Shown in pieces: positions 3,138 through 61,583 of a stretch of 64,000 nucleotides of DNA. The notes below the pieces were generated by a model. It was not told where the DNA came from. It made no database searches and saw only the letters and a program-made list of their open reading frames with translations. Numbering within the stretch: the stretch's first letter is position 1; each line of letters opens with the position of its first letter. Origin of the DNA: Terrimicrobiaceae bacterium (GTDB lineage Bacteria; Verrucomicrobiota; Verrucomicrobiia; Chthoniobacterales; Terrimicrobiaceae); assembly GCA_018402345.1 (NCBI GenBank), contig JAGYIV010000010.1, positions 310,001-374,000 on the forward strand. Reading direction: 5' to 3'. The position numbers and the translations under genes were made by a program.

Positions 3138-3152
3138 TTTTCCCGCACCGCC

Positions 3153-3665: not shown

Positions 3666-3677
3666 CCTCACACGACC

Positions 3678-4535: not shown

Positions 4536-4569
4536 CCCGTAAAAAAACCCACCCAAAAAAACAAAACCC

Positions 4570-5097: not shown

Positions 5098-5115
5098 CCC
5101 ACGGCCCCGCCTCCC

Positions 5116-6861: not shown

Positions 6862-7695
6862 ACTCCTTCCCGCCACGCTTCGCCACCCTGCTGCTCACAG
6901 CCCTCTTGCTGCTGCTTTCCTTCGCGCAACCCGCCTCCGCCCAGCAAGCCGCACCTCAAGCTCCCAGCGCCCCGCAGGCTCCCCAAGCCCCGCAGGCTCC
7001 CAAAGCCCCTTCCGTCGCCTCCCCCATCGTGAACCTCCAACTCGGCACCGGAGGCAACGATCGCGAAAACCTCAGCACAGCCATTCAGATCGTCTTCGTC
7101 ATGACGCTTCTGACTCTGGCCCCCTCGCTCATCATGCTCATGACCAGCTTCACTCGACATCGTCATCGTGCTGGGCTTTGTCCGCACCGCCCTCGGCGTC
7201 CCAAGCGCCCCAGCAAACCAACTCCTCATCGGCCTCTCCCTCTTCCTTACCTTCTTCATCATGGCCCCCGTCTGGCAGGACATCCAAACAAATGCCCTCG
7301 ACCCCTACATGGCAGAACAAATCAATTCCGACGAAGCCATGGACCGCGCCGTCGAACCCATCCGCACCTTCATGCTCCGCCAAACACGCCCGGGCGAAGT
7401 CGATTTCTTTCTCGACCTCGCGGGTATGGGCCGCACCGAAGTCAACGACCTCCCCATGCGCGTCGTCCTTCCGGCCTTTGTCGTTAGTGAACTGCGCACC
7501 GCCTTCCAGATGGGATTCCTCATCTTTATTCCGTTCCTCGTCATCGACTTCCTTGTGGCATCGACCCTCATGTCGATGGGCATGATGATGATGCCCCCGA
7601 CCATGGTCGCCCTTCCTCTCAAGCTCCTCCTCTTCGTCCTCGTGGACGGCTGGCAACTCGTCGTGCGCTCCCTCGTCCAAAGCTTCGCCTCATGA
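6858..7695 (+). CDS. fliP: Flagellar export gate protein FliP, frame-shifted
   Basis: FliP forms the export gate with FliQ and FliR. From a TTG start at 6858 the protein has a cleavable signal peptide, an Ala/Pro/Gln linker, then STAIQIVFVMTLLTLAPSLI and MTSFTR. At 7157 an extra A (CTCGACATCG where CTCGCATCG is expected) shifts the frame. The family-specific remainder continues one frame over: GFVRTALGVPSAPANQLLIG, MAPVWQDI, and RTAFQMGFLIFIPFLVIDFL. Everything else is intact and of normal length. Either motility is lost here or the extra base is a sequencing error. Confidence 0.85.
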
Positions 7696-7961
7696 ACCAG
7701 GAAACCGCCATCGAGATGCTCCGCTCGCTCATCACCGTGGCCCTTCTGGTGAACACCCCCATCATCGGCGCGGCCATCATCGTGGGCGTAGTCGTCAGCC
7801 TCCTCCAAGCCATCACCAGCATCCAAGAACCCACTCTCAGCTTCGCCCCGAAACTCTTCGCCGTCGGTGGCGTTATCATCGTGGGCGCTCCATGGATGGT
7901 CCGGCAACTCATGCAGTTCACCGAGTTTTTCATGAATAAAATCCCGGAGATGGTGAGATGA
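7692..7961 (+). CDS. fliQ: Flagellar export gate protein FliQ
   Basis: An 89-residue protein with two membrane helices and the family core QAITSIQEPTLSFAPKLFAV. FliQ is the minor subunit that wraps around FliP-FliR in the export gate. Length is standard. It overlaps fliP and fliR by 4 bases each. Confidence 0.95.
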   Translation: MNQETAIEMLRSLITVALLVNTPIIGAAIIVGVVVSLLQAITSIQEPTLSFAPKLFAVGGVIIVGAPWMVRQLMQFTEFFMNKIPEMVR

Positions 7962-8716
7962 TGGAGATTCGCATCGAGCAGATCTACCCAGGTCTCCTCA
8001 TCTTCATGCGAGCCTCCGGCCTCTTCATCATCATGCCCGTCTTCTCCGGCAACATGATCCCCCCGCCGGTCCGCATTGGCATGGCGGCATTGTTTGCCTA
8101 CCTCCTCGCACCGATCTTCGGCGATTTCGGCGGCATCCCCGTCCACTGGTTCGGCGTCGTCCTCGAAGTCATCCACGAAGTCCTCACCGGCCTCCTCCTC
8201 GGGTTTGCGGTGCGATTCCTGCTATACGGTCTGGAAATGGCTGGAGAAATCATCGCCGTCCAAATCGGCCTTTCCCTCAGTTCAAATATCGACCCGGTGA
8301 CCCGCAACAGCGCGACACCTCCGAACACCATGCTCCTCTCCTTCGGCACCGTTCTCTTCCTCGTCACCGGTGCCTACCAATACTGCCTCATCGCCTTCGC
8401 CCGCAGCTTCGACCTCTTCCCCCCCTCCGCCATCTTCAACCCCCAGTCCATCAATACCGTCATCGACGCCAGCGCCAATGTCCTCCTCATCGCCGTCCAA
8501 ATCGCCGCCCCGCTCCTCGCCATCAGCTTCCTCGTCAATATGTGCTTCTCCGTCCTGGGCCGCGCCGCTCCCAGCCTGAACGTCTTCCTCCTCAGCTTTC
8601 CCGTCCAGATTCTCGCAGGCCTCACCGTCCTCTCCATGACCCTCGGCCTCATCGTTCAATACATCCTCCGCGAAATGGTCGTCCTCCCCGAAACCATGCT
8701 CCGCTTCCTGCGCTGA
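7958..8716 (+). CDS. fliR: Flagellar export gate protein FliR
   Basis: A 252-residue multi-spanning protein with about six hydrophobic segments. It has the FliR N-terminal region (LLIFMRASGLFIIMPVFSG) and a central AGEIIAVQIGLSLSSNIDP block. FliR completes the FliP5-FliQ4-FliR1 gate. Length is typical. It overlaps fliQ by ATGA, and flhB begins 7 bases after its stop. Confidence 0.95.
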   Translation: MMEIRIEQIYPGLLIFMRASGLFIIMPVFSGNMIPPPVRIGMAALFAYLLAPIFGDFGGIPVHWFGVVLEVIHEVLTGLLLGFAVRFLLYGLEMAGEIIAVQIGLSLSSNIDPVTRNSATPPNTMLLSFGTVLFLVTGAYQYCLIAFARSFDLFPPSAIFNPQSINTVIDASANVLLIAVQIAAPLLAISFLVNMCFSVLGRAAPSLNVFLLSFPVQILAGLTVLSMTLGLIVQYILREMVVLPETMLRFLR

Positions 8717-8723
8717 CTCCCCC

Positions 8724-9818
8724 ATGGCCGAGCACAACGACACAGCCACAGAGCAGGCGACAGAGAAAAAAATCTCGGACGCCCACAAAAAAGGCCAGTT
8801 CGCCCAAGCGCCGGAAATCCAAGTCGTCTTCGGTCTCATCGCGAGCTACTTCGTCATCCTCTTCACCCTCGGCAGCCAAGCCAACTACGTGACCGAGTTC
8901 ACCGTGGGACTCTTCGGCAACCTCGAGAAATACACCGTCATCAGCGATGCCCTCCCCCACTGGATCGCCCTCGGCTTCCTCATGCTCTTCGGCCTCCTCC
9001 TCCCCATTATCGGCGCGAACACCGTTGCCTGCGCCCTCGCAGGTGGTCTCCAGTCGCGCTTCAAAGCCACCCCGGAGGTCGTGGGCATCAAGTTTGAAAA
9101 ACTCAACCCCGTCACCGGCTTCAAACGCGTCTTCAGCAAACAGGGCGTCGTCAAAATGCTCATCGACCTCGGGAAAGTCCTCATCGTCGCCGGCCTCATC
9201 TACAGCGGCGTCCAGGAAATCCTCTCCGACCCCATCTTCTTCACCCCCGTCCCCCTCTTCCGCCTCGGCGAGTTCATCCACAGCTCGTCCCTCATGCTCT
9301 TCTTCCGCCTCGCCCTCGCCATGGGCGGCCTCGCCCTCATCCACTACCTCTTCCAACTCAAAAAAACCGAAAAGGATCTCATGATGACCAAGCAGGAGAT
9401 CAAGGACGAGAACCGCCAAGCCATGGGCGACCCGAACATCCGCATGGCCCAGCGCGCCATGGCCCGCCGCCTCCTCCAAAAACAAATGCTCGCCGACGTC
9501 CCCCAGGCCGACGTCATCGTCACCAACCCCACCCACTACGCCGTCGCCCTCAAATACGAACGCGGCGTGGACCTTGCCCCGGTCATTCTCGCCAAAGGCC
9601 ACAACATCTTCGCCCAGCGCATCAAATCCATCGGCGCGAAATTCCAAGTCCCCACCGTGGAAAACAAACCCGTCGCCCGCTCGCTCTACAAATTCGGCCA
9701 AGTCGGCAAACCCATCCCAGCCCAACTTTATCAAGCCATCGCCGAAATTCTCGGTTACGTCTACCGCACCCACCGCTATTACTTCTACGAACTCAAATCC
9801 CGCCGCCTGAAATCCTGA
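8724..9818 (+). CDS. flhB: Flagellar export switch protein FlhB
   Basis: A 364-residue protein. It has a charged N-terminal segment with ATEKKISDAHKKGQFAQAP, four membrane segments, then a cytoplasmic domain with the autocleavage motif Asn-Pro-Thr-His at residues 268-271 (VIVTNPTHYAVAL). Cleavage between Asn and Pro is needed for the switch from hook to filament export, triggered by FliK. All key residues are present, and length is normal. Confidence 0.96.
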   Translation: MAEHNDTATEQATEKKISDAHKKGQFAQAPEIQVVFGLIASYFVILFTLGSQANYVTEFTVGLFGNLEKYTVISDALPHWIALGFLMLFGLLLPIIGANTVACALAGGLQSRFKATPEVVGIKFEKLNPVTGFKRVFSKQGVVKMLIDLGKVLIVAGLIYSGVQEILSDPIFFTPVPLFRLGEFIHSSSLMLFFRLALAMGGLALIHYLFQLKKTEKDLMMTKQEIKDENRQAMGDPNIRMAQRAMARRLLQKQMLADVPQADVIVTNPTHYAVALKYERGVDLAPVILAKGHNIFAQRIKSIGAKFQVPTVENKPVARSLYKFGQVGKPIPAQLYQAIAEILGYVYRTHRYYFYELKSRRLKS

Positions 9819-9824
9819 CCGCCC

Positions 9825-12001
9825 ATGGCCACGCCCTCGACTCCATCGACCGCCGACACCTCCCCGTGGGGACGCCTGCTTAAAAACGGCGATCTCTTTT
9901 TCACGCTCGGCCTTTTCGGCGTCATCCTCCTCCTCGTCGTCCCCGTCCCCACCTGGGCGCTGGACCTCTTCCTCTCCCTCAACATCGCCATCTCCCTCCT
10001 CATCCTTCTCGTCATCATCTACGTGAAGGACCCCCCGGAGTTCTCTGCCTTTCCGACCATCCTCCTTGCCGTCACCCTCCTGCGGCTCGCCCTCAACATC
10101 GCCTCGACCCGCCTCATTCTCCTCGACGGCTACGCGGGCCGCGTCATCGAGGCCTTTGGTGAGGTCCTCATCCAAGGCAACTACCTCGTTGGCGCCGTTG
10201 TTTTCATCATTCTCGTCATCATCAATTTCGTCGTCATCACCAAAGGCGCGGGCCGCATCGCAGAAGTCGCCGCACGCTTCACCCTCGACGCCATGCCGGG
10301 CAAACAAATGGCTATCGATGCCGAACTCAACGCGGGCATCATCGACGAACTCACCGCCACCACCCGCCGCCTCAAAGTCCAAAAAGAAGCCGACTTCTAC
10401 GGCGCCATGGACGGTGCCAGCAAGTTCGTCCGTGGCGATGCCGTCGCGGGCATCCTCATCACCCTCATCAACGTCCTCGGCGGCTTCGGCATCGGTATGC
10501 TCCAAAAAGGCCTCCCCATCGACCAGGCCCTCGAAAAATACACCCTCCTCTCCATCGGTGATGGCCTCGTCTCGCAAGTCCCGGCACTCATCATCTCCGT
10601 GGCCGCCGGCCTCCTCGTCACCCGCGCCCAAGGCGAAAACAGCCTCGGCGCCCAGATCGGCCAGCAAATCGGCGCCTATCCCCGCGCCGTGGGCATCGCC
10701 TCAGGCCTCATCGCCGCCATGGCCTTCGCCCCGGGCATGCCTGCCACTCCCTTCCTCCTCCTCGGCGCCATCACCGGCTTCCTCGCCTACCTCCTGAACA
10801 AACAATCCAAAGCCGCCCTCGACAAAGGTGGAAAAGGCTCGCTCGCCCTTCCCGCCCCCGCAGGCTCCCAAAGCGGTGGCGGCTCGCCGCTCCGGGCCAG
10901 CAAGGCTCCGCCTCGGGTGATCAAAAAGGCTCCGAGGACTTCCACAAACTCATCGAAACTGACATCCTCTCCATCGAAGTCGGTTACGGCCTCCTCCGCC
11001 TCGCGGACAAAACCCAAGGCGGCGACCTCCTCGACCGCATCACCGGCGTTCGCAAGGGCTTTGCCCGCGACAATGGCATGATCATTCCTCCAATCGCGAT
11101 CCGCGACAGCCTGGAGATCGAGCCGAACGACTACCGATTCCTCCTCCGCGGCAAGGCCATGGCCGCTGCCTCCGTCATCCCAAACCGCTGGCTGGCCATG
11201 AACGTCTCGGGCAGCCAAGTCACCCTCCGCGGCGTCCCCACCCGCGAACCCGTCTTCGGCATCGAAGCCGTCTGGATCACCGAGGAGGAAAAACGCACCG
11301 CCGAAATCAACGGCTACAGCGTCGTCGATGCCGTCTCGGTCCTCATCACCCACCTCGCGGAAACCCTTAAACAAATCGCCCACCTCATCCTCACCCGCCA
11401 GGAAGTCCAATCCCTCATCGATCGCATCAAGGAATCCAACCCCTCCCTCGTCGCCGAACTCCTCCCGGACCTCGTCAACCTCGGCATCATCCAACGCGTC
11501 CTCCAAAACCTCCTCCGCGAAGGCGTCCCCATCAAAAACCTCCCCCTCATCCTCGAAACCCTCGCCGACTACGCCACCATCACCAAAAATCCGGACGAAC
11601 TCTCCGAACAAGTCCGCCGCCGTCTCGGCACCTACTTCATCGGCCAATACGAATCCGAACCAGGCCTCGTCCGCGCCATCACCCTCGACCCGGGCCTCGA
11701 ACAAACCCTCATCACCCGCATCCAGCGCTCACACTTCGAGACCACTCTCGCCCTCGACCCACACACCGCCCAGTTCCTCCTCCGCGAACTCACCATCCGC
11801 TCGAACTCCATGGCCGAACAGGGCCTCAGCCCCATCACCATCCTCAGCGCGGAACTCCGCCTCGCCTTCAAACGCTTCTTCGAACCCTCCCTCCCCAAAC
11901 TCGCCGTCCTCGCCTACCAAGAACTCCCCGCACAAACCGAAATCCAAAACATCGGCATCATCACCGCACCCCCCAACCCGAAAACCCAAGCCGCCGCCTA
12001 A
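9825..12001 (+). CDS. flhA: Flagellar export protein FlhA, frame-shifted in the linker
   Basis: The N-terminal membrane domain (about residues 1-325) contains the FlhA signature region DPPEFSAFPTILLAVTLLRL and the cytoplasmic FHIPEP loop with GRIAEVAARFTLDAMPGKQM. The cytoplasmic nonamer-ring domain follows (DILSIEVGYGLLRLADK, then RGKAMAAASVIPNRWLAMNV). The two halves are in different frames. A base appears to be missing between about 10860 and 10925, in the Gly/Ser-rich linker, after which the frame returns at Gly-Ser-Glu-Asp (10928). Total length of about 725 codons is normal. The linker position means a small error there would be less visible than in the domains. Confidence 0.88.
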
Positions 12002-12335
12002 CCTCCCCCAAGGCAGATTTTTCCCCCCCCACACTCAAAACTCGAGGGGGCACGGTCAGTCCCAGCCGTGAAGAAACCGACCCCCTCCCCTCACCCAACC
12101 CCCGCATCAAAAGAAAACAAACACGAGATTGATGCATCTTAATTTAATAGAAAAGAAACCATTAATTACTTAAATAATACTTAAACAAACCGAATTCCCC
12201 CGCACCTCCAATTCTCAAAATTCTGTTAATTCTGTCCAACCCTCCCTCCAGTTCCCGTGCCACCCACGACTGCCTGATTTTGGCTTAAATCTTGCTACGA
12301 ACTGGTGGTTTTTTCTAAAAGTCACACCCTGACCC
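12002..12335 (+). other. Gene-free gap after flhA, with an AT-rich patch
   Basis: A 334-base gap with no supportable gene. It contains a degenerate palindromic repeat at 12046-12070 and a markedly AT-rich stretch at about 12115-12190 unlike the surrounding GC-rich DNA. The AT-rich part could hold the promoter of the downstream small membrane protein-fliA unit. I could not fix clear -35/-10 boxes. Confidence 0.5.
12046..12070 (+). repeat. Interspersed palindrome, degenerate copy
   Basis: GGGGG followed by CACGGTCAGTCCCAGCCGTG. It aligns with the better copies at 15489-15513 and 20061-20083, which share a purine/G run and a CACGGCYR...YGGCCGTG hairpin. It lies between genes, like the others. 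Confidence 0.55.
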
Positions 12336-12635
12336 ATGCAATATTTCACCCTCATCGGGGGCTTCCTCGGCTTCCTGCTCACCCTCGTGGCGAGCATTTT
12401 TGCAGGGAAAGACCTCGCCGCATCGGTCTTCAACGCCACCATCGGCTGCATCATCACCGCCTTCCTCTTCCGCGGCCTGCGCTTCTCCATCGAACATTGC
12501 GCCCGCCAGATCGTTGCCCAAAAAGCCCGCGAGCGCGACGAACTCCGCGCCGCCGAACAAGCCGCCGCTGCCGCGCCTGATCCCGCTGCCACACCCCAAG
12601 CCGCGCCGAACGAAACCCAAGGCTCACCCGCCTGA
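12336..12635 (+). CDS. Small two-helix membrane protein of unknown function
   Basis: A 99-residue protein with two hydrophobic helices at about residues 4-23 and 29-47 (TIGCIITAFLFRGLRF between them and after), then a charged helix and an Ala/Pro tail in the cytoplasm. I do not recognise a family. It sits 2 bases before fliA, where many bacteria with this operon order carry flhF/flhG, so it probably shares the fliA transcript. It is too small to replace FlhF or FlhG. Coding is supported by composition, spacing and a plausible membrane topology. Confidence 0.6.
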   Translation: MQYFTLIGGFLGFLLTLVASIFAGKDLAASVFNATIGCIITAFLFRGLRFSIEHCARQIVAQKARERDELRAAEQAAAAAPDPAATPQAAPNETQGSPA

Positions 12636-12637
12636 CC

Positions 12638-13420
12638 ATGCCCGAAGTCGCCGAACACAAACCAGTCATCAACCCCCACAGGGTTTCGGCCGCTTGGCGC
12701 GCCTACGGCGAGGCGTCCCACTCCGAGGAGGATACCCTCAAAAGCCACATGCCCCTCGTCCGCTCCGTCGTGGACCGCATGCGCGCCAGCCTCCCCCCGC
12801 ACATCGATATCCAGGACCTCTACTCGGTCGGCCTCCTCGGCCTCATCAACGCCCTCCGCCGCTTCGACCCCACCCACGGCATCACCTTCGCCAGCTACGC
12901 CACCATGCGAATCCGTGGCGCCGTTCTCGACGAACTCCGCCGCATGGACTGGATGTCCCGCTCTCTCCGCGTCAAAGCCAAAAAACTCACCGAAGTCATC
13001 TCCGCCTTCGAACAAAAAGTCGGCCGCCCAGCCACAGAAGCCGAAATCGCCGAGGAACTCGGCATCTCCCCGGAGGAATACACCACTCTCCTCGACGACG
13101 TCCGCCCCGTCAGCTACGTGGAACTCGATTCCCTCTCGGGCGATGACGAGGACTCGAACCTCCACGACGTCATTGCGGACGAAAACCAACCCACCGCCAG
13201 CGATCTGGCGATGAAGCAGGAACTCATCCAGCTCGTCTCCGAACGCATCGAAAAACTCCCCGAAATCCAACGAAAAATCCTCGCCATGTATTACCACGAA
13301 AACCTTCGCCTCGCCGAAATCGCAAAAATCTTCGGCCTCACGGAATCCCGTATCTGCCAAATCCACACCCAAGCCGTGCTCAGCCTCAAGTCCTACATCC
13401 GCTCGTCAGCCTCCAAATAA
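12638..13420 (+). CDS. fliA: Flagellar sigma factor FliA (sigma-28/WhiG type)
   Basis: A 260-residue sigma-70 family protein. Region 2 carries HIDIQDLYSVGLLGLINALR and GITFASYATMRIRGAVLDEL; region 3 has GRPATEAEIAEELGIS; region 4 has LAEIAKIFGLTESRICQIHT. That domain set, without region 1, is typical of FliA, which directs late flagellar genes such as flagellin and the stator. It lies directly upstream of motA-motB. No FlgM anti-sigma factor is visible in the window. Confidence 0.95.
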   Translation: MPEVAEHKPVINPHRVSAAWRAYGEASHSEEDTLKSHMPLVRSVVDRMRASLPPHIDIQDLYSVGLLGLINALRRFDPTHGITFASYATMRIRGAVLDELRRMDWMSRSLRVKAKKLTEVISAFEQKVGRPATEAEIAEELGISPEEYTTLLDDVRPVSYVELDSLSGDDEDSNLHDVIADENQPTASDLAMKQELIQLVSERIEKLPEIQRKILAMYYHENLRLAEIAKIFGLTESRICQIHTQAVLSLKSYIRSSASK

Positions 13421-13467
13421 AAAACATCCCACCCGACGTCTCAACCCGCTAACAAACAAAACACCTC

Positions 13468-14337
13468 ATGACACTCATCATCGGATTCATCGTCGTTCTT
13501 GCCGCCACCATCGCGGGTTACCTTTTTGCCGGTGGCAGCCTCCTCGCACTCACCATCGCGGCATGGCCTGAATACCTCATCATCTTCGGCATCTCGATCG
13601 GGCTCCTCGTCATCGCCAGTCCGATGTCCCTCCTCAAAAGCATCCTCAACAAAATCAAAATCTCCTTCCGCAACCAGGCCGTCCCCACCGAAGACTACCT
13701 CGACGCCCTTAAGCTCCTTTACGAACTCTTCACCAAAGCCCGCCGCGGCGGCCTCATCGCCATCGAAGACGACGTCGTCACCCCAGACCAAAGCCAAATC
13801 TTCCAAAAATATCCCTCATTCCTCAACGACCACGAACGCCGCGAATTCCTCTGCAACGGCCTCAAGCCCATCATCGACGGCCGCCTCAAGCCCGAACAAC
13901 TCGCCGCCATGCTCGAAGGCGACCTCGAAAGCAAACACGAGGACTTCCACCTCCCCGTCCAAACCCTCAACCTCGTCGGCGACTCCCTCCCGGGCATCGG
14001 CATCGTGGCCGCCGTCATGGGCATCATCAACACCATGGGCAGCATCAGCCAAGGCGCTGAAAAAGTGGGCATCAAGGTCGGCGCGGCCCTCGTCGGCACC
14101 TTCCTTGGCGTCTTTGTCGCCTACGGCTTCGTCAACCCCCTCGCTGCCCGTATCAAACTCAACAACGTCTACGAACTCCAATACTTCACTCTCCTCATGA
14201 AGGGCATCGTCGGCTTCACCGGCGGCATGGCCCCGCTCATGGCTGTCGAATACGCCCGTCGCGCCATCGACCCCGCCTTCCAACCCTCATCCGACGAAGT
14301 CGAAAACATGGTCAAGAGCCTCGGCACTGGAGCCTAA
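13468..14337 (+). CDS. motA: Flagellar stator protein MotA
   Basis: A 289-residue protein with four membrane helices and the large cytoplasmic loop between helices 2 and 3. The conserved block with DSLPGIGIVAAVMGIINTMG and GAALVGTFLGVFVAYGFVNP forms helices 3 and 4. MotA pairs with MotB to form the ion-driven stator. It is followed 12 bases later by motB. Length is close to enterobacterial MotA (295). Confidence 0.95.
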   Translation: MTLIIGFIVVLAATIAGYLFAGGSLLALTIAAWPEYLIIFGISIGLLVIASPMSLLKSILNKIKISFRNQAVPTEDYLDALKLLYELFTKARRGGLIAIEDDVVTPDQSQIFQKYPSFLNDHERREFLCNGLKPIIDGRLKPEQLAAMLEGDLESKHEDFHLPVQTLNLVGDSLPGIGIVAAVMGIINTMGSISQGAEKVGIKVGAALVGTFLGVFVAYGFVNPLAARIKLNNVYELQYFTLLMKGIVGFTGGMAPLMAVEYARRAIDPAFQPSSDEVENMVKSLGTGA

Positions 14338-14349
14338 GCCTCACATCCC

Positions 14350-15138
14350 ATGGCAAAAAAACATCACGAACACCACGGCGGCGCATGGAAAGTCGCCTAC
14401 GCGGACTTCATCACCTCCATGATGGCCCTCTTCATGGTCATGTGGATTCTCATCGCGGAGGAAAAACCCGAGGTGCTCGCCCAGATGTCCCTCTACTTCA
14501 AAGACCCCGCCTCCGCCCAGAAGCCGCCCACCACCTGGGGCGTCATGGAAAAGGAAATCATGGCGACCCAGAAGGACGCCAACATCAACGACAAGCGCGA
14601 CAATGAAAACGAGGGCTTCCTCAAAGCCATCGCCCGCGATTTCTACCGCATGCTCAATGTCAAGGAGGAGGAAAAGGAACCCATCGACATCGAGATCACC
14701 TCAGACGGCCTGAAAATGACCGTCTATGACCGCACCAACAAACCCATCTTCATCGACAACACCACCCAACTCACCGACTGGGGGAAATTCGTCTTCCAGA
14801 ACATGGCCTGGCTCATCGAACGCTACAATTTCCTTGTCTATATCGACGGACACACCTCCACCGGCCTCCGCTTCGACGACCCCAAGCAATACAACGAATG
14901 GGAACTCAGCGCCGACCGCGCAAACACCATCCGCCGCTTCATGGAGTATTACGCCATGGCCGACGACAAAACAAAACGCGTCACCGGTTTCGCCGACTCC
15001 AAGCCCCTTATCAACACCGCGCCCGACGCCGAGGAAAACCAGCGCATCACCGTCAGCCTCTCGCTCACGCAAAAACCACCCGCCACTCCGGAGGCCTCGC
15101 CTTCCACCGCCACCACACCGGCAGCCACCACCCCCTGA
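14350..15138 (+). CDS. motB: Flagellar stator protein MotB
   Basis: A 262-residue protein with a His-rich cytoplasmic start, one membrane helix with the ion-carrying aspartate (D19 in VAYADFITSMMALFMVMWIL), a plug/linker, and a C-terminal OmpA-like peptidoglycan-binding domain with YIDGHTSTGLRFDDPKQYNE and WELSADRANTIRRFMEYY. It anchors the stator to the cell wall. The Asp and Arg expected for peptidoglycan binding are present. A Thr/Pro/Ala tail ends the protein. Confidence 0.95.
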   Translation: MAKKHHEHHGGAWKVAYADFITSMMALFMVMWILIAEEKPEVLAQMSLYFKDPASAQKPPTTWGVMEKEIMATQKDANINDKRDNENEGFLKAIARDFYRMLNVKEEEKEPIDIEITSDGLKMTVYDRTNKPIFIDNTTQLTDWGKFVFQNMAWLIERYNFLVYIDGHTSTGLRFDDPKQYNEWELSADRANTIRRFMEYYAMADDKTKRVTGFADSKPLINTAPDAEENQRITVSLSLTQKPPATPEASPSTATTPAATTP

Positions 15139-25492: not shown

Positions 25493-25571
25493 AAGTCAAC
25501 GCGGGACAATAAAACCAGTTGTTGCAACTGCCAGAATTTTATTGCAACATCATGCCCCTTTTTACAACGGA
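25493..25571 (+). promoter_or_regulatory. Divergent promoter region with GTTGCAAC repeats
   Basis: This AT-rich 79-base gap separates the CHAD gene from the divergent HTH/OmpA gene. It contains the 8-base palindrome GTTGCAAC (25518-25525) and a second TTGCAAC 23-24 bases downstream, about two helical turns apart. This is a plausible operator, possibly for the HTH protein itself. Promoter boxes are not certain. Confidence 0.4.
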
Positions 25572-27263
25572 ATGGACAACGAAAAAACCGCCCACAACGA
25601 GGTCATGAACGCAGACGAAGCGGCCTTGTTTCTGAAAATGCCGAAGTCAACCCTCCTGAAACTCACCAGCGAGGGACAAATCCCCGGTGTGAAAGTCGGC
25701 CGTGGCTGGAGATTCAACCTTACCGCCCTTGAAAATTGGAAAAGCGCCTCGTCTGCAGCGATGGACGAGGATTCGGACACCGTTGGCGAACCTGTCGATC
25801 TTGATTTCGACACGAACCTCTCAAGCGCTGAAAACCGCCTCCGTTCGACCATCAAACCGGTGGTCGATCAACCCGAGGAGTCCACCGGCGACTACGATTT
25901 CGACTCCGTGGGCGAAGTCCACGAACTCGAGGAGGAGGAGGAAGCCACGCCCGTTGCCAAGGCTCCGAAAAAGGCCGATCCCATTCCCGAACACGTCTCC
26001 GAAGGTCTTGGAGAAGTTCGCGAACTCGAAGAGGAGCCGGAAAGTTCCCTTCGCGGCCGCCCGAAGAAAACCTCCGCCGCCCGCACCACATCGGCCCTCG
26101 AACTCATGGCCCGCATCTCCGAAAAATCCTCGCAGAAGCAAGCCGCCGACCGGATCAGCAAGGCGAAAAGCCTGCCCACCACCCTCACCCCGAAACGCCG
26201 CGGCAGGCCCCCGCGCCAAGCCTCACCTGCACCAACCCTCGCGCCCGTCGAGGAGGCGCCCGTTCACAAAACCCAAGTCCGCGAGACGATCCGCGAAACA
26301 GTCCGCGAGACATCCCAAGAGGACGCTGTGGAGGTCTCGCGCCCCTACAATCCTGCCGCGACTACCAAGCGCCCCGACTTTTCGCGCCCGTCAAAACCCG
26401 CCGGCAGTTCCTTCAGCCTCCTTCGCAAGCTCTCCTACTGGGTCGTCGTTCTCGCAGTGCTCGCCTTGGCGGCCTTCGGCATCAAAGGCCTCCTCGTGCC
26501 CGCAACCACCGAACCCGAGGCGACCGCCCCCACAGCCCAACTCCACAGCCTGCCGGAGTTCAACACAGTCTATCGCCATAGCGATGACTCCCGACCTGGC
26601 GAGGACAATTTCAACGTGCCCGAAGCAACCCCAGCGCCAGCACCTCAAGCGGCCACGGAACAATCCCTCGCACAGATCACTGCTCCGCCCGCCCCGGCCA
26701 CAGAACCCGCCCCCAACCAAGTCGCCCTCACGCCAATCCCAGCGCAGGAGACCACCCAACCCACCACTCCCATCTCCGCTCCGCAACCCGTGGACAGAGG
26801 CTTGGAATCCATCAACCGCATCCTTCCCGCCCTCTTCGATCTCTCCGGATGCTCAATCAACAGCTCAAACAATGAAATCCGCATTGTGTTCCAAGAAGGC
26901 ATCTTCTCCTCGGGCGTGAACATTGGCTCTCAAGGCCGCACCCAGCTCGCACGCGTGGCCGAATTCCTCAACGCAAACGCCCCCGATTTCTGGGTCATTA
27001 TCGAAGGCCAAACAGACTCCGGAAAAGTCCGTGCCAAATCCCCCTTCCGCGACAACTTCACCCTCGGACTGCGGCGCGCCATCGAAGCGACAACCGTCAT
27101 GCGTGAGGAGGGCAACTTCCCCGCCGACCGCTTGCTGGCCAGCTCCGCTGGCGGCCTCAACCCGCCATTCCCTGAAAATCAGCCAGGTGCTGCCGCTAGA
27201 AACCGCACAGTCGTTCTCCGCCTCGTGCCCAAAACCAGCCCGCTCCCGGCCCAGAATCAATAG
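25572..27263 (+). CDS. HTH / AT-hook / transmembrane / OmpA-like fusion protein
   Basis: A 563-residue protein. Residues 11-57 form an excisionase/MerR-type winged HTH (MNADEAALFLKMPKSTLLKL, VGRGWRFN). Residues 60-285 are a charged, low-complexity linker with two AT-hook motifs (RGRPKK at 161-166, RRGRPPR at 209-215). Residues 288-309 are one membrane helix (LSYWVVVLAVLALAAFGIKG). A Pro/Ala/Thr linker follows, then an OmpA/MotB-type domain at about 420-560 with VIIEGQTDSG, RDNFTLGLRRAIEATTVM and a final NRTVVLRLVP. Topology puts DNA-binding parts in the cytoplasm and the peptidoglycan-binding part in the periplasm. The start is fixed by the HTH; longer upstream frames are non-coding. The function is not known. 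Confidence 0.85.
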   Translation: MDNEKTAHNEVMNADEAALFLKMPKSTLLKLTSEGQIPGVKVGRGWRFNLTALENWKSASSAAMDEDSDTVGEPVDLDFDTNLSSAENRLRSTIKPVVDQPEESTGDYDFDSVGEVHELEEEEEATPVAKAPKKADPIPEHVSEGLGEVRELEEEPESSLRGRPKKTSAARTTSALELMARISEKSSQKQAADRISKAKSLPTTLTPKRRGRPPRQASPAPTLAPVEEAPVHKTQVRETIRETVRETSQEDAVEVSRPYNPAATTKRPDFSRPSKPAGSSFSLLRKLSYWVVVLAVLALAAFGIKGLLVPATTEPEATAPTAQLHSLPEFNTVYRHSDDSRPGEDNFNVPEATPAPAPQAATEQSLAQITAPPAPATEPAPNQVALTPIPAQETTQPTTPISAPQPVDRGLESINRILPALFDLSGCSINSSNNEIRIVFQEGIFSSGVNIGSQGRTQLARVAEFLNANAPDFWVIIEGQTDSGKVRAKSPFRDNFTLGLRRAIEATTVMREEGNFPADRLLASSAGGLNPPFPENQPGAAARNRTVVLRLVPKTSPLPAQNQ

Positions 27264-29039: not shown

Positions 29040-32000
29040 TTAAAACGCGAAGTTGAGCGAGGCGCTGATGGCGTTCTCGAGGTAGGTCTGCGCTCCGAAG
29101 TTCACGTTGTAGAACACCGACGCGCTCCAGTCCTGCCCGATCTGTGCCGTCACTCCCGCTCCCGCGAACACGCTGTTGCGGTAGGGCTCGCTCGTCTCGT
29201 AGCCGAAGGAGGCGCCGCTGCCTCCGTCGAGTGCCGAGGTGATCGTGCGCGGATTGTTCATGAACTCATGCATCCACAGCATCCTCGCTTCAGGGATGAG
29301 CGCGATCTTCTCGGCAACCTCCCACGTGTAGGCCACGCGCCCTCCCAGCGTGCTTCGCAGGCTGTTGGCGTTCTGCTGGCCGAGCGCGAGGTCGAGGCTG
29401 TCGGCTCCCGTTTCGGCGAAGCCTCCCACGCCGGCGTAGGTGTATTGCGCCCCGACGATCGGGCCGATCGTCCAGTTGCCGACCTCGAAATCCTTCCCGA
29501 GGTTCAGCGCGGCGCTGAACTGGCCGCTGTTCGGGTTCGCCCGGGCTGTGCGGTCGATCGTGCTGAACTTAATCGAACGCCGCGTCTGGTAGCCGGTGTA
29601 GCCACCGCCGATGACACTGTTCACATAGTAGCCGTCCTCGTTTTCCCAGGTGGCATAGGCTCCGAAGAGCGCGCTGTTGCCGCGCGTGCTGCTGCCGCCG
29701 CTGTATTTGGCGTAGTTGTATTGGTAGCCGGCGTAGAGGCCGGTGCTGAACGCCTCGCTCCAACGGTAATCGGCTCCCGCGAGGAACCCGCCGGCGTCGT
29801 TCTTGTAACCGGGAGACTCGGAGAGGTTGTAGGAGCGCGAGAACGATCCCGTGCCCATGACCCACGCGTTCCAGTTCGTGGACACGGCATCCTCGACGAT
29901 CGGGCTGGCGGTCTTCGCATCGGCCACGCTCTTGCCGTCGCGGTCGTGCTTGAGCGGTTCGCTCTGCATGCCGATGGCCTGGAACCCGCCGACTCCCGCG
30001 CGCACGGCGCTCAGGCGCTGGTTGAGTTGCTGGGTTTGCGTGAACGCCTGCTCGATGCTCATGTCGGCAAGGCTCTCGTAAAAGCCGGGCATGATTTGCT
30101 CGAAGGCATTCGGGAACTGCTCGGTTGTCAGCGAGTCGAGCGCGATGCTGACCGTCTCGCGGTCACCGCTGGTAGCCGGGATGTATTTATCCAACGCCTT
30201 GGCCACGCTCCGCTGGTTGGGAGTCACTGCCACGCGCGTGTAGGTGTCCGGCGCGATGAGTAGCGTGCCGGTTGTGCCGCCATTGAGGAACCGCCCGCGG
30301 AAGGTCTCGGGGGCGATGATGCTGTCAAACTCCCCGCTGATCCCGCCTCCGGCGGTGAGAAAGGCATACTGCTGGCCATAGGCGAGCGGGTTGCCGCCGT
30401 AGGGTATGACATTCAGCGAGCCACCCACCGTGGCTGCTTCACCGACCACAAGTCGGTCGAAGTTCGAAAGGCTCTCGATCTCGATATCCGTCACAGCGGT
30501 GGGCGTGAGGGTCAAAGAGGCCACGCTCAATATTCCCGGAGAGTTGCCCGGCGACAAGGTGCCGGAAACTGTCACCGGCGCGAAGATCGTGCCGCTTCCA
30601 CCGAGCGTGCCGCCCGAGTTCACAATGAGTGAGTTGGCGGCGAGTTGGCCATTGACCGACAGCAACCCGGCAACCACATCCACGCTCACCGCAGAGACTG
30701 TGCCGGTGGTGTTGAGCGAACCCGAGGCATTGACTGTCAGGGTTCCATTGCCGCCGAGATTTCCCGACAATGTCTGCGCGGCGGAACTTGCGTAGACGAA
30801 CGCCCCGTTGTTGGTGATCGCCCCCGAGTAATTCCCGCCGCCAAGCACTCCGGCGCCCCCGATTTGCAACGCCCCCGCCGAAATCGTGATGGGAGCGTTG
30901 AATGTATTCGCACCCGTCAGCGTGAGTGTTCCCGTGCCTTCCTTTTGAAGCTCCGTGACTCCCGCACCGAGCGGCGCACTCCACTCGATGGTGTTGCCGT
31001 TCGTGTCCACCGGGAGTTTCCCCGCAAACACAAATCTTGGAGACAAGTCCACCGAGATGCCCGGGGCGTAAACCAAGGTGCCGCCATCGAAAACAATCCG
31101 CTGGCTGAGCCTCTCGGGCAGGTTCAACGCGTTGTTGTGGGCCACAAGAAGAACACCGTCTTCAAGCATGGCATCGCCGGTGAAGTTCGTGTTGTTGCCC
31201 GAAAGCGCCAGGATGCCCGCGCCTGTTTTCACCAGATCGCCGCTGCCGGAAAGTTGCCCGGTGAGCGAAATCGTGCGGTTCGCGTAGGTTGTCAACGTAT
31301 TGCCTTGGGTGTCGATGTCGCCGCTGACCGTCAATGTCGCATCCGTTGCGCTGAAGGTCTGGTTCGCCGTGAGGTTCAGGTCGAGCCGCACGGTTTTTGG
31401 CAGCGCGAATTCCGTGGTGATCCCCTCCGCTCCGATCTCCAACGGCGCGGTCTCGATCTCGCCCGTGCCGAATGTGAACTTGTAGGAATCCCACACGCCA
31501 AAGTTTTCGAAGTTCGTGTTCGTGGAGTGGTTGAACAGCTCGATTCCCCATGTGCCGACAAGTGACTCTCCAAAGAAGGCATTGCTCAGAAATGTCCACT
31601 GGCCGACATCCGACAAGGACGCAAAGCGGTTCTCCTCGGAGGGTGTGTCGATCAGGTTGCGGTCGCTGTAGAACAACTGGGCACTCGTCCCGGAGGGCGA
31701 TGTCAACAAGGCGGAGAAATCGCCTAAAATCGCCCCCTCGCCCGCGAGGTAGGCGTCCGCATTTTTCTGCATCCCGGACAACCTCATCTCCAACTGCACA
31801 TACTCCAGCGGCATCAACCCAGAGGCCTCCACTCTGAATATCGCCCTGGACACACGCGTGTCGGCACCGAACACGCCTTGCGCGACGGGTTGGATGCCGG
31901 CTTCCAGCACGCGCGCGTCGCTCAAGTGCGTGACCTTTTCCGCCGCACGGGTGAACCAATCGGCATCGATCAATCCAAATCCATACTCGGGGTTGAAATC

Positions 32001-33227
32001 GAATCCGCTGCCGTTTGCGACCCATTTGATGTTTCCCGGATCGACCTTGACGCTGGTCCGCGCGAGGAGATGGCGCGCCATGCGAATGTTCAGGCTGGGA
32101 TTCGCCTCCACCCCCAGCGCCATGATGCCAGACACAAGTGGAGTCGCCGAGGAGGTGCCCCCGAACGTGCTCGTGTAGTTGCCGAGATCCGCAGCGTCGA
32201 CTGGTTGGAAATACGGGTCGTCCTCCGGCGGAAGTGACGCATCGTCACCGATATTGTTGCGGCCATCCCTCCCGGTGCGGTCGGTTGTGGCAGATGCTGT
32301 AAACACTGCCTCGGGACTGCCGCTGCTTGGGGCGACCACCATGAGATTCGCCCCGTAGCTGCTGTAGTTTGAGCGTGTTCCATTACTACCGAGGGCGCCG
32401 ACCGTGATCACGAAGGGCGAGGTGTTCTCTAGGCCCTTGTTCGAGTCTTCTAAGGGATATTGGCCCGCAGCGTTTCCCGCGGCAAAGACATGAATCACCC
32501 CCAATTCGGCGCTCTGCTCAAGGGCATCCAAGGCCAATTGGGCATCGGGATTTTTCGCCCCTTCAAAAGCATTGCTTTGGCCATAGCTATGGTTCATCAC
32601 CCGCACAGGCGGGCGGATTCCGGGAATCGGTGTGTAGGCGTCAAAAGGCGTTTCCTGCCCGACGAACCCATTCGCGTGGGCTAGGGCCTGAAATTCCGTT
32701 AAATTCTCAGCGATATCTTTTTCGTCTATGCCAACCAGCCTTTGGCCCGCGATTTGTGCCAACGGGGCGGCTCCGGTGACCCCGATGCCATTGCCGCCCC
32801 GGGCGGCCGCGACGCCTGCAACAGAGGTGCCATGGTTGTCGTCCACCTTCTCGGGGAAGGGGCGCAGCGGGTCCGCCTCGTTTTCCGCCACCGTCATCGA
32901 GTAGTCCCAACTGTATTCATTGAGGAACCCCGCCACCAAATCCGGATGATCCCCCTGCACGCCATCATCGACGATGCTGATTACCACGCCATTCCCGGTC
33001 AACCCACGCGCCCACGCGCCCTCCACATTCACATCCAGTCCGGCATTGACCTCGCTTATTGGCATCTGGTTCACCAAGTGCCATTGGCCATAGTAGCCAG
33101 CCGCCGTTCCGTTTCCCGTCCCGGGAGCAAAGTAGGGATCATTCGGAAAGAAGCCCTGCGCGTGGACAAGGTTGGGCGCCATTACGGCGAGAATGACACA
33201 TACCGATAATAATATTTTGTGTTTCAT
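29040..33227 (-). CDS. Kexin-like serine protease autotransporter (intact copy)
   Basis: A 1395-residue secreted protein: signal peptide at residues 1-23, then a subtilase domain of the kexin type with Asp in VVISIVDDGVQGDHPD (about 87), His in DDNHGTSVAGVAAA (132), the oxyanion Asn in FAAGNAAG and Ser in FGGTSSATPLVSG. A P-domain follows (LTSPSGTSAQLFYSDRN, VGTWGIELFNHST). Next is a beta-helix passenger with autotransporter-associated repeats (GDLVKTGAGILALSGNN), and about 290 residues of autotransporter barrel ending in Leu-Asn-Phe-Ala-Phe. It should cross the outer membrane by the type Va route. It is the downstream member of a tandem pair sharing long, almost identical stretches with 33377-37605. 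Confidence 0.93.
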   Translation of the reverse strand: MKHKILLSVCVILAVMAPNLVHAQGFFPNDPYFAPGTGNGTAAGYYGQWHLVNQMPISEVNAGLDVNVEGAWARGLTGNGVVISIVDDGVQGDHPDLVAGFLNEYSWDYSMTVAENEADPLRPFPEKVDDNHGTSVAGVAAARGGNGIGVTGAAPLAQIAGQRLVGIDEKDIAENLTEFQALAHANGFVGQETPFDAYTPIPGIRPPVRVMNHSYGQSNAFEGAKNPDAQLALDALEQSAELGVIHVFAAGNAAGQYPLEDSNKGLENTSPFVITVGALGSNGTRSNYSSYGANLMVVAPSSGSPEAVFTASATTDRTGRDGRNNIGDDASLPPEDDPYFQPVDAADLGNYTSTFGGTSSATPLVSGIMALGVEANPSLNIRMARHLLARTSVKVDPGNIKWVANGSGFDFNPEYGFGLIDADWFTRAAEKVTHLSDARVLEAGIQPVAQGVFGADTRVSRAIFRVEASGLMPLEYVQLEMRLSGMQKNADAYLAGEGAILGDFSALLTSPSGTSAQLFYSDRNLIDTPSEENRFASLSDVGQWTFLSNAFFGESLVGTWGIELFNHSTNTNFENFGVWDSYKFTFGTGEIETAPLEIGAEGITTEFALPKTVRLDLNLTANQTFSATDATLTVSGDIDTQGNTLTTYANRTISLTGQLSGSGDLVKTGAGILALSGNNTNFTGDAMLEDGVLLVAHNNALNLPERLSQRIVFDGGTLVYAPGISVDLSPRFVFAGKLPVDTNGNTIEWSAPLGAGVTELQKEGTGTLTLTGANTFNAPITISAGALQIGGAGVLGGGNYSGAITNNGAFVYASSAAQTLSGNLGGNGTLTVNASGSLNTTGTVSAVSVDVVAGLLSVNGQLAANSLIVNSGGTLGGSGTIFAPVTVSGTLSPGNSPGILSVASLTLTPTAVTDIEIESLSNFDRLVVGEAATVGGSLNVIPYGGNPLAYGQQYAFLTAGGGISGEFDSIIAPETFRGRFLNGGTTGTLLIAPDTYTRVAVTPNQRSVAKALDKYIPATSGDRETVSIALDSLTTEQFPNAFEQIMPGFYESLADMSIEQAFTQTQQLNQRLSAVRAGVGGFQAIGMQSEPLKHDRDGKSVADAKTASPIVEDAVSTNWNAWVMGTGSFSRSYNLSESPGYKNDAGGFLAGADYRWSEAFSTGLYAGYQYNYAKYSGGSSTRGNSALFGAYATWENEDGYYVNSVIGGGYTGYQTRRSIKFSTIDRTARANPNSGQFSAALNLGKDFEVGNWTIGPIVGAQYTYAGVGGFAETGADSLDLALGQQNANSLRSTLGGRVAYTWEVAEKIALIPEARMLWMHEFMNNPRTITSALDGGSGASFGYETSEPYRNSVFAGAGVTAQIGQDWSASVFYNVNFGAQTYLENAISASLNFAF

Positions 33228-33376
33228 GATCTATTCCCGTGTCGATGGCATCATAGCTGTCAGTGATTGGCTCTCTTCAATTTTTCTACTCCAAGTCGGC
33301 AAAGTCGAGCACATGGAGTGCCATCTTCATTTGGTCCTTAAGGCTGTCATAAATCGATGCTTCATCGACGCTTTCA

Positions 33377-36300
33377 TTAAAACGCGAAGTTGAGCGAGGC
33401 GCTGATGGCGTTCTCGAGGTAGGTCTGCGCTCCGAAGTTCACGTTGTAGAACACCGACGCGTTCCAGCCGATCGCCGATCTGCGCGCTCACGCCCGCTCC
33501 GGCGAACACGCTGTTGCGATACGGCGCGCCGGTCTCGTAGCCGAAGGATGGGCCGCTTCCTCCATCCAACGCCGAATTGATCGTGCGCGGGTTGTTCATG
33601 AACTCGTGCATCCACAGCATCCTCGCCTCGGGGATGAGTGCGATGTTCCCGGCCACCTCCCAAGTGTAGGCCACGCGGCCGCCCAGCGTGCTCCGCAGGC
33701 TGTTTGCGTTCTGCTGCCCGAGCGCCAGATCCAGGCTGTCGGCTCCTGTCTCCGCGAAGCCTCCCACGCCGGCGTAGGTGTATTGCGCCCCGACGATCGG
33801 GCCGATCGTCCAGTTGCCGAACTCGAAATCCTTCCCGAGGTTCAGCGCGGCGCTGAATTGCCCGCTGTTCGGATTCGCCCGCGCCGTGCGGTCGATCGTG
33901 CCGAAGGTGATCGCCCGCCGCGTCTGGTAGCCGGTGTAGCCACCGCCGATGACACTGTTCACATAGTAGCCGTCCTCGTTCTCCCATGTGGCATAGGCCC
34001 CGAAGAGCGCGCTGTTGCCGCGCGTGCTGCTGCCGCCGCTGTATTTGGCGTAGTTGTATTGGTAGCCGGCGTAGAGGCCGGTGCTGAACGCCTCGCTCCA
34101 GCGGTAATCGGCTCCCGCGAGGAACCCGCCGGCGTCGTTTTTATAACCGGGAGACTCGGAGAGGTTGTAGGAGCGCGAGAACGATCCCGTGCCCATGACC
34201 CACGCGTTCCAGTTCGTGGACACGGCATCCTCGACGATCGGGCTGGCGGTCTTCGCATCGGCCACGCTCTTGCCGTCGCGGTCGTGCTTGAGCGGTTCGC
34301 TCTGCATGACCGATGGCCTGGAAGCTCTGGATTCCCGCCCTCACCGCGCCCATGCGTTGATTAAGTTGCTGGGTCTGCGTGAACGCCTGCTCGATGCTCA
34401 TGTCCGCCAGACTCTCGTAGAACCCGGGCATGATTTGCTCGAAGGAGGCGGGGTATTGCTCGGCTGTTTGCAGGTCGAGGGCGATGCTGACTGTCTCGCG
34501 GTCGCCTTCGGTGGCGGGGATGAAGCTGTCGAGTGCTTTGGCCACATTGCGCTGGTTCGGCGTCACGGCCCCGCGGGTGTAGGTGTCGGGCGCGATCAGC
34601 AGCGTGCCGGTTGTGCCGCCATTGAGGAAGCGCCCGCGGAAGGTCTCGGGAGCATTGATCGTGTCGAACTCCCCACTGATCCCACCCCCCGCGGTGAGGA
34701 AGGCATACTGCTGGCCGTAGGCGAGCGGGTTGCCGTTGTAGGGAATGATATTCAGCGTGCCATCCACCGTGGCGGCTCCGCTGACCGCGAGGCGATCGAA
34801 GTTCGTGAGGCTTTCGATTTCGATATCCGTCACGGCGGTGGGCGTGAGCGTCAGAGTCGCCACGCTCAATATTCCCGGAGAGTTGCCCGGCGACAAGGTG
34901 CCGGAAACCGTCACCGGCGCGAAGATCGTGCCGCTTCCACCGAGCGTGGCGCCGGAGTTAACAGCCACCGAGTTGGAGGCGAGTTGACCATTGACGGCAA
35001 GCAATCCAGCCACAACCTCCACCGACGAAGCGGTGACATTCCCAGTAGTCTTGAGCGAACCAGTGGCATTCACTGTCAGGTTGCCGCTGCCTGAGATATC
35101 GCCTGAGATGACCTGTGCGGCGGAGCTCGAGTAGACGAAATTGCCATTGTTGGTGATCGAGCCGCTGAAATTCCCACCACCGAGCACGCCGCTGCCTGCG
35201 ATGTTTAGTTCCCCCGCAGCGATGGTGATCGGCCCATTGAAGGTATTGGCACCCGTCAGCGTCAGGGTTCCTGCACCTTGTTTGTCGAGTTCCGCCACTC
35301 CGGCTCCAAGCGGCGCACTCCACTCGACATTGTTGCCGTTTGTGTCCACCGGGAGTTTCCCCGCAAACACAAATCTTGGAGACAAGTCCACCGAGATGCC
35401 CGGTGCGTAAACCAAGGTGCCGCCATCGAAAACAATCCGCTGGCTGAGCCTCTCGGGCAGGTTCAACGCGTTGTTGTGGGCCACAAGAAGAACACCGTCT
35501 TCAAGCATGGCATCGCCGGTGAAGTTCGTGTTGTTGCCCGAAAGCGCCAAGATGCCCGCGCCTGTTTTCACCAGATCGCCGCTGCCGGAAAGTTGCCCGG
35601 TGAGCGAAATCGTGCGGTTCGCGTAGGTTGTCAACGTATTGCCTTGGGTGTCGATGTCGCCGCTGACCGTCAATGTCGCATCCGTTGCGCTGAAGGTCTG
35701 GTTCGCCGTGAGGTTCAGGTCGAGGCGCACGGTTTTCGGCAGGGAGAATTCCGTGGTGATGCCCTCGGCTCCGATTTCCAACGGCGCGATCTCGATCTCG
35801 CCCGTGCCGAATGTGAACTTGTAGGAATCCCACACGCCAAAGTTCTCGAAGTTCGTGTTCGTGGAGTGGTTGAACAGCTCGATTCCCCATGTGCCGACAA
35901 GTGACTCTCCAAAGAAGGTATTGCTCAGAAATGTCCACTGGCCGACATCCGTCAAGGACGCAAGGCGGTTCTCCTCGGAGGGTGTGTCGATCAGGTTGCG
36001 GTCGCTGTAGAACAACTGGGCACTCGTCCCCGAAGGCGATGTCAAAAAGGCGTAGAAATCGCCGAGAATCGCCCCCTCGCCCGCGAGGTAGGCGTCCGCA
36101 TTTTTCTGCATCCCGGACAACCTCATCTCCAACTGCACATACTCCAGCGGCATCAACCCAGAGGCCTCCACTCTGAATGCCGCCCTGGTCACACGCGTGT
36201 CGGCACCGAACACGCCTTGCGCGACGGGTTGGATGCCGGCTTCCAGAACCCGCGCGTCGCTCAAGTGCGTGACCTTTTCCGCCGCACGGGTGAACCAATC

Positions 36301-37605
36301 GGCATCGATCAATCCAAATCCATACTCGGGGTTGAAATCGAATCCGCTGCCGTTTGCGACCCAGTTGTTGTTTCCCGGATCGACCTTGACGCTGGTCCGC
36401 GCGAGGAGATGGCGCGCCATGCGAATGTTCAGGCTGGGATTCGCTTCCACACCCAAAGCCATCACGCCGGCCACCAATGGCGAGGCCGACGAGGTTCCTC
36501 CAAAAGTGCTGGTGTAGTTGCCGAGATCCGCAGCGTCGACTGGCTGGAAATACGGGTCGTCCTTCGGCGGAAGTGACGCATCGTCACCGATATTGTTGTA
36601 GCCATCCCTCCCGGTGCGGTCGGTTGTGGAGATGCTGAAAAACTCCTCGCTGCCCGAACTCGGGGCAACCACCATGAGGTTGGCCCCGTAGCTGCTATAG
36701 GGAGCGCGCCTGCCGTTACTGGCCAGGGAACCAACGGTCAGGACATGGGGCGATGTGTTCGCCAGCCGCTTGTTTGCGTCCTCGGTGGGGTAAATGCCCC
36801 CGCTGTTGCCTGAGGAGATAGAATGCAGGACGCCAAGCGAGGCGCTTTGCTCCAGCGCGTTCATCTTCAAAAGGGCATCAGGTTTCCCGGCACCCTCGAA
36901 TGCGTTATCCGGCCCATAGCTATGGTTCATCACCCGCACAGGCGGGTGGGCTCCGGGAACTTGTGTGTAGGTGTCAAAGGGTGTTTCCTGACCGATGAAC
37001 CCATAGGCGCGGGCTAACGCCTGATCCAGCGTCAAATCCCCTGCCAGATCTTGAAGGCGGATCACCCTTTGGCCCGCAATTTGTGCCAACGGGGCCGCTC
37101 CTGTAACACCGATGCCATTGCCGCCCCGTGCGGCCGCGACGCCTGCGACAGAGGTGCCATGGTTGTCATCCAGCTTCTTAGGGAAGGGGCGCAGCGGGTC
37201 CGCCTCGTTTTCCGCCACCGTCATCGAGTAGTCCCAGCTGTATTCATTGAGGAACCCCGCCACCAAATCCGGATGATCCCCCTGCACGCCGACATCGACG
37301 ATGCTGATCACCACGCCATTGCCGGTGAGCCCGCGCGCCCATGCGCCGGCGACATTCGCATCGAGACCCGCATTCACGGCGTTGACCGGCATCTGGTTGA
37401 TCAAATGCCACTGGCCATAATACCCCTCGGCGGTGCCATTTCCCGAACCCGGCGCAAAGTAGGGGTCGGATGGGTAAAACGATTGGGCAGAGCAGAGGGC
37501 CGTCAGGAACAAAAACAGCAGGGCAGACAAACGCCTGAGCGGACCATGCCCCCCTCTTGATTGAAACGCCAAACCAACAGTCGGGGAAAACGCAGGAGAT
37601 TTCAT
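33377..37605 (-). pseudogene. Second kexin-like autotransporter, two frame breaks in the barrel
   Basis: Same architecture as the neighbour: signal peptide, protease domain with ISIVDVGVQGDHPD, NHGTSVAGVAAARGG and GGTSSASPLVAG, P-domain, autotransporter repeats and barrel. Compared with the intact copy there is an extra base in GCATGACCGATGG (about 34308-34310), which breaks the frame before the barrel. A second extra base at about 33467-33472 changes the C-terminal Trp-Asn-Ala-Ser segment. Corrected, it would end at 33377 with the same Asn-Phe-Ala-Phe tail. Without correction it could not be displayed. The protease domain diverges more than the passenger, suggesting gene conversion. Confidence 0.85.
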
Positions 37606-59949: not shown

Positions 59950-59968
59950 TAGTGGGGCCTTTCGTTGC

Positions 59969-60418: not shown

Positions 60419-60437
60419 GGCGCGGAATTAAGCCGAT

Positions 60438-61568: not shown

Positions 61569-61583
61569 AGCTTATCTTTCAGG

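Follow-up and report, generated by a model that had tools for sequence, protein, structure and literature searches.

The way chromosomes keep a fixed position with respect to the cell wall is understood in few bacteria, and most often several proteins are required. In Bacillus, RacA uses a MerR-like winged helix to connect sites on the chromosome with the cell pole. The HTH of RodZ binds MreB, and the MerR-like domain of CbpM binds CbpA. FimV and HubP are peptidoglycan-bound hubs with an acidic cytoplasmic part (PMC12918733), and in Myxococcus xanthus the ParB-like adapter PadC brings ParA to a scaffold (PMC5703909).

The stretch of DNA analyzed here (the window, 64,000 nucleotides of a Terrimicrobiaceae genome) contains a gene (P0001, 25572..27263, on the + strand like all window features located below) for a 563-amino-acid protein in which an acidic, disordered linker joins an HTH_17 winged helix to a single membrane helix, and a MotB-like OmpA domain follows. 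An AlphaFold model built with 14 homologues contains the winged helix, a membrane helix at residues 280-302, and an OmpA fold (pLDDT about 90), with the remainder mostly disordered. An earlier note on this DNA had claimed that a HTH, a single membrane helix, and an OmpA-type domain occur in one chain; Pfam, AlphaFold, and fold searches place all three there, both domains exceed their Pfam cut-offs, and models and fold searches agree, which supports this two-sided architecture; its rarity is supported as well. The HTH belongs to the protein, because all 13 homologues that are complete at the 5' end share its start Met and because two of these loci (L039 and L040) have an in-frame stop upstream of it, with one codon between; a start after residue 60, which would place the HTH outside the protein, is thus contradicted. 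A longer reading frame from 24744 is unlikely as well, given the position of this Met and of a conserved TTGCAn-N17-CAnnnT element, which lies upstream with about 21 bp between its end and the ATG. Within the genus family, the HTH is the most conserved part (mean pairwise identity of 90%), followed by the OmpA domain (67%), the membrane helix (61%), and the linkers (34% to 48%).

Each of the described systems shares only part of this plan. HubP and FimV likewise combine a membrane helix with a periplasmic domain that binds peptidoglycan and with a long, disordered, acidic part in the cytoplasm that ends in a client-binding head (PMC12918733), but they have LysM instead of OmpA, a periplasmic N-terminus, and a TPR head instead of a HTH, and no sequence homology is claimed. 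LysM-like and FimV TPR domains are absent from the window protein, for which Pfam gives only HTH_17 and OmpA. TssL (evolved DotU/TagL) and MotB have the same topology, with a cytoplasmic head, a membrane helix, and a C-terminal OmpA domain, and proteins of these types are the best profile and fold matches of the window OmpA domain. However, the window protein lacks a DotU domain and the membrane-helix signature of a MotA partner, and whole-protein scores are far below cut-off (40.2 versus 139.8 bits for TIGR03350 and 32 versus 300 for the MotB model). RacA resembles it in the HTH fold (5i44) but is soluble, uses DivIVA, and has neither a membrane helix nor a wall-binding domain. ToxR and CadC share the order of cytoplasmic winged helix, one membrane helix, and periplasmic domain, although their winged helix is of the OmpR type and their periplasmic folds are different and without a peptidoglycan-binding domain. 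RodZ also has a cytoplasmic HTH, a single membrane helix, and a periplasmic domain, but its HTH is of the HTH_25 (Xre) type and its periplasmic domain differs.

The excisionase-like winged helix (25599..25745, residues 10-58) is matched by HTH_17 over residues 12-58 (E = 7.2e-10, 39.4 bits versus a cut-off of 27) and by TIGR01764 (39.5 versus 28.8 bits). Since a profile of this domain had no match among PDB sequences, a fold search was used. Modeled alone, the domain forms a beta-alpha-alpha-beta-beta-alpha winged helix, as the earlier note had proposed, and its best fold match is RdfS, followed by TraN, RacA-DNA (5i44), BldC-DNA, and Xis. Eight residues (K25, S26, T27, K30, K41, R44, W46, and R47) that make up the usual basic pattern of HTH_17 are invariant in the family. 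Fold and residues together suggest that the head binds DNA. The CbpM-CbpA complex (3ucs), in which a MerR-like domain has a protein as its ligand, is also among the fold matches, and the head could instead bind a protein partner, making the window protein an envelope scaffold for a cytoplasmic complex. Short conserved motifs in the linker, which suggest partners, and the protein-binding types of other heads joined to related OmpA domains (coiled coil and GYF_2, see below) are in keeping with this alternative. We nevertheless consider it rather unlikely, given the retained, invariant basic pattern and the fact that the role of RodZ is not vacant: a RodZ-type HTH_25 protein is present in 16 of 16 genus members, which also led us to reject replacement of RodZ as a function.

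The cytoplasmic linker is variable overall, with a few conserved islands. These are a short predicted helix (25806..25865, residues 79-98), the helix TTSALELMARISEKSS followed by a basic stretch (26085..26132, residues 172-187, with 78% identity over 172-186), which is a possible partner-binding motif, and the juxtamembrane motif DAVEVSRPYN (26319..26351, residues 250-260, 81% identity). Two AT-hook-like segments, RGRPKK (26052..26069, residues 161-166) and KRRGRPPR (26193..26216, residues 208-215), occur in the window protein and its homologue L041, and a single RGRP is also found in L037. Two or more RGRP cores, located in the window protein at residues 161-164 and 210-213, have a probability of 0.0002 in a shuffled linker of the same composition. 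The two AT-hook cores claimed from the sequence are thus present in this protein but are no feature of the family, in which RGRP is found in 3 of 15 members and a PGRP variant in 3 others, and 9 of 15 have no GRP core; the hooks are lineage specific, and we dropped them as a defining element. The membrane helix (26412..26480, residues 281-303) is a lone hydrophobic peak (Kyte-Doolittle 2.62, next best window 0.88) that coincides with the AlphaFold helix, in agreement with the single helix proposed before. Beyond it are a conserved periplasmic juxtamembrane motif, LPEFxxVYRHxD (26541..26582, residues 324-337, 75% identity), and a variable Pro/Ala-rich linker (26583..26786, residues 338-405). 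Matches of the family profile to TAL effectors in the PDB were discarded as Pro/Ala-rich low-complexity similarity.

The C-terminal domain (26796..27236, residues 409-555) is a MotB-like OmpA domain of what we call the NRT subclass. OmpA (PF00691) matches residues 454-545 (E = 6.9e-7, 30.0 bits versus a cut-off of 27.2), and the model superposes on the periplasmic domains of MotB, MotS, PomB, and PA0833 with Z scores of 16 to 17 (17.1 to 3khn and 16.5 to PA0833), confirming the OmpA/MotB-type assignment of the earlier note. The DAP-contacting residues of Acinetobacter baumannii OmpA are Asp271 and Arg286 (PMC5974059). By motif alignment, these correspond in the window protein to D482 (with T481 at 27012..27017) and R502 (27075..27077). 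The note had pointed to this Asp (TD) and Arg (LRRA) as kept; both are, together with N495, in the window protein, and the pocket Arg and Asn are invariant in the family, but the Asp is present in only 11 of 15 members, with Asn in three and Ser in one. The His of the GHTD motif is Gln throughout the genus family. Fold and pocket residues argue for peptidoglycan binding. These substitutions would also be expected if the domain, at least in part of the genus, did not bind peptidoglycan and served oligomerization or another periplasmic partner, which is quite improbable considering that the window protein and 11 of 15 members retain D482, N495, and R502 and that most related anchors keep GHTD. 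Near the end of the domain is the signature N544-R545-T546 (27201..27209), which is common to related anchors, while most OmpA domains have NRR.

To place this domain, a whole-family profile was run on 388 sampled genomes of the phylum with three candidates scored per genome, so that the counts given here are lower bounds. The scan recovered a set of proteins whose match to the periplasmic part is far above that of ordinary OmpA proteins. Besides the 15 genus members, the NRT subclass ends at least 25 other single-pass proteins with a common plan, in which a cytoplasmic head, one membrane helix, and a linker precede a C-terminal OmpA domain that has N-R/K-T close to its end where N-R-R is usual, and the window protein fits this class. 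In a tree from a single FastTree run covering about 145 columns, the NRT domains are separate from the Pal and two other OmpA proteins of the window genome (support 0.95), the placement of its divergent MotB outside is poorly supported, and the HTH family groups with a family f71 anchor (0.96).

The heads of these relatives are varied. Nine have ParB_N (E = 1e-10 to 1.7e-21), at least two have GYF_2 with long coiled coils, several have a coiled coil alone, and one is TPR-like by eye. In five loci (L100:1551-3730, L101:1581-3922, L102:1665-3675, L110:840-3144, and L095:1737-3555, the last without a ParB_N domain visible by eye), a ParA gene (AAA_31, E = 1e-52 to 1e-58) lies upstream of the anchor gene and overlaps its start or abuts it. 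Exactly these five anchors, L095 included, share with canonical ParB the N-terminal motif LGRGL, while five ParB_N anchors of family f35 have neither the motif nor a ParA neighbor. All nine genomes examined that encode a ParB_N anchor have a separate, better-scoring canonical ParB, and both genomes checked for ParA (G371 and G548) encode another, equally scoring ParA at a different place, so the ParA-anchor pair looks like an addition. Together, ParA and the ParB_N-TM-OmpA protein look like a wall-anchored, partition-like pair beside canonical ParB. In PadC, too, a ParB_N domain serves as the adapter for ParA (PMC5703909), but PadC is bound to bactofilins, whereas the sister proteins have a membrane helix and OmpA, and the window protein has a HTH. 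Five very long class members (L105, L107, L125, L130, and L131; 790 to 2,017 amino acids) with a GYF_2-type head, coiled coil, membrane helix, and OmpA are possible cytoskeletal wall anchors. The FtsZl1/vWA/OmpA system (PMC2875224) was considered and set aside, as no FtsZ-like gene with a GGGTG motif is near the sister anchors.

A search of mainly non-subscription literature found no published description of NRT-type anchors, nor of a system with the architecture of the window protein. Neither OmpA nor transmembrane fusions are mentioned in the main text of a 2025 survey on fusions of the ParB fold (PMC12704722), and OmpA is absent from the main text of a survey of transmembrane regulators (PMC10269533). 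The NRT-type OmpA anchors are apparently an undescribed class in the phylum.

Among 97 relatives searched, most of them, like the other sequences compared, metagenome assemblies, the HTH-TM-OmpA architecture is confined to the genus, where it is present in one copy in 15 of 16 genomes; the remaining one is a fragmented assembly that is 87% complete. It is present in none of 10 other genomes of the family, and the rest of the order has HTH-only matches. Those read in the order and phylum were HTH-receiver-like, stand-alone BldC-like, or HTH-acetyl-CoA synthetase fusions, and none had the window architecture. The fusions, in three genomes of the phylum (L115:781-2976, L116:940-3150, and L121:757-2916), have an HTH_17-like domain N-terminal to an acetyl-CoA synthetase-like enzyme of 725 to 740 amino acids.

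The gene neighborhood varies between subclades. In the window, the gene is divergent from what had been described as a CHAD/CYTH-NUDIX pair. CHAD is clear (E = 5e-36) and NUDIX is marginal (0.0026, under the cut-off; 1.2e-4 in the L039 homologue), but CYTH was not detected by Pfam, and the neighbors are not conserved: CHAD is divergent from the gene only in the window and L039, a NUDIX-type homologue occurs also in L037, and other members have other neighbors, so this link was dropped as a general feature. In one subclade (two species, L029:8847-10388 and L030:9634-11184), the gene adjoins ftsA-ftsZ, convergent with ftsZ at the end of a division and cell-wall cluster. No genus member has a ParA or ParB gene adjoining the HTH version, and in the window genome a single canonical ParA and a single ParB are encoded at sites not linked to the gene or to each other.

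Upstream of the gene is a conserved box, TTGCAA (25522-25527), a 17-bp spacer, and CAACAT (25545-25550). In the upstream regions of 14 homologues, TTGC is kept, as are an A and a T in the second hexamer, and TTGC(A) is found about 50 bp before the start in 14 of 14 in an otherwise diverged region. The GTTGCAAC repeats claimed between the genes do not hold up, as TTGCAAC occurs in the window at chance frequency (7 seen versus 7.2 expected), and GTTGCAAC was rejected as a specific operator and kept as a promoter/operator candidate. The spacing of the box makes a promoter the best reading of the GTTGCAAC "repeat", although the box does not pass a strict scan for E. coli-type sigma-70 promoters; a sigma-54 reading of TTGCA was rejected because no conserved GG element was seen upstream by eye. 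The exact pattern is unique in the genome, and no repeated genomic binding site was found, this box being the sole conserved motif. AT-hooks, repeats, and CHAD/CYTH-NUDIX neighbors, none of them conserved with the gene, should all be dropped as evidence.

The box could also be a putative autoregulatory operator, and this bears on the second function proposed in the earlier note, a transmembrane one-component regulator whose OmpA domain would sense the wall (its state or its distance) and whose HTH would act from the membrane on promoters, probably including its own, in the manner of ToxR and CadC. HTH_17 is chiefly a regulator and excisionase domain, single-pass membrane regulators are widespread (PMC10269533), and the box is conserved in all homologues amid diverged sequence. 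However, its spacing (TTGCAn, 17 bp, CAnnnT) is that of a core promoter and it may be nothing more, no conserved neighbor offers itself as a target, and the ParB_N, GYF_2, and coiled-coil heads of the relatives are not transcription factors. Such a regulator is doubtful in absolute terms, and it is nearly as good an account as anchoring; sequence alone does not separate the two.

The composition of the class tips the balance toward anchoring, since its heads are not those of transcription factors. We therefore favor, with a probability of roughly 0.4, a single-pass, wall-anchored hub whose HTH head most likely keeps the nucleoid, or a site on the chromosome, at the envelope. The C-terminal OmpA domain would fix this inner-membrane protein to peptidoglycan, and the winged-helix head would sit in the cytoplasm on a long, flexible, acidic leash. 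With the same OmpA subclass carrying varied cytoplasmic heads, the class may represent modular wall-anchored hubs in the phylum, and in this genus a DNA-binding-type head would hold DNA much as HubP/FimV, PadC, and RacA keep partition factors or DNA at defined places. From features computed directly (domains, folds, the single membrane helix, conservation, OmpA kinship with ParB_N anchors, and ParA operons in relatives), we infer the orientation in vivo, the binding of peptidoglycan and DNA, and the anchoring role. The tether proposed in the earlier note is partly supported, indirectly, by the ParB_N-TM-OmpA relatives, several of which have ParA next door. Counting against an anchor are the lack of a ParA or ParB neighbor and of a repeated site, the loss of the pocket Asp in 4 of 15 members, and the fact that a membrane-tethered HTH also has the look of a transmembrane regulator. 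A more specific version, in which a single chain links chromosome and peptidoglycan, with the HTH bound to a defined chromosomal site that OmpA fixes while the sister ParB_N-TM-OmpA fixes ParA machinery to the wall, is possible but tentative. A DNA-type head and a wall-type tail in one chain, along with the ParB_N/ParA sisters, would offer a short, testable route to such a chromosome-wall link in Verrucomicrobiota and their relatives.

Several other features of the window genome were observed. A protein encoded at G000:C8:184360-184644 (L005) has, by eye, a protein-kinase-like head, a single membrane helix, a phosphate-binding-protein-like domain, and OmpA in one chain, another cytoplasm-to-wall architecture. 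In the window, a large cluster of flagellar-type genes (375-15138) shows strong GC skew and has a MotA-MotB-like pair (13468-15138) in which the OmpA motif is GHTS and not GHTD; a second flagellar block has a csrA-fliW-flgL-flgK-like order (59641-63995). Tandem giant autotransporter-like genes are located at 29040-37605, where the near-identical barrel stretch MQSEPLKHDRDGKSVADAKTASPIVEDAVSTNWNAWVMGTGSFSR suggests duplication.
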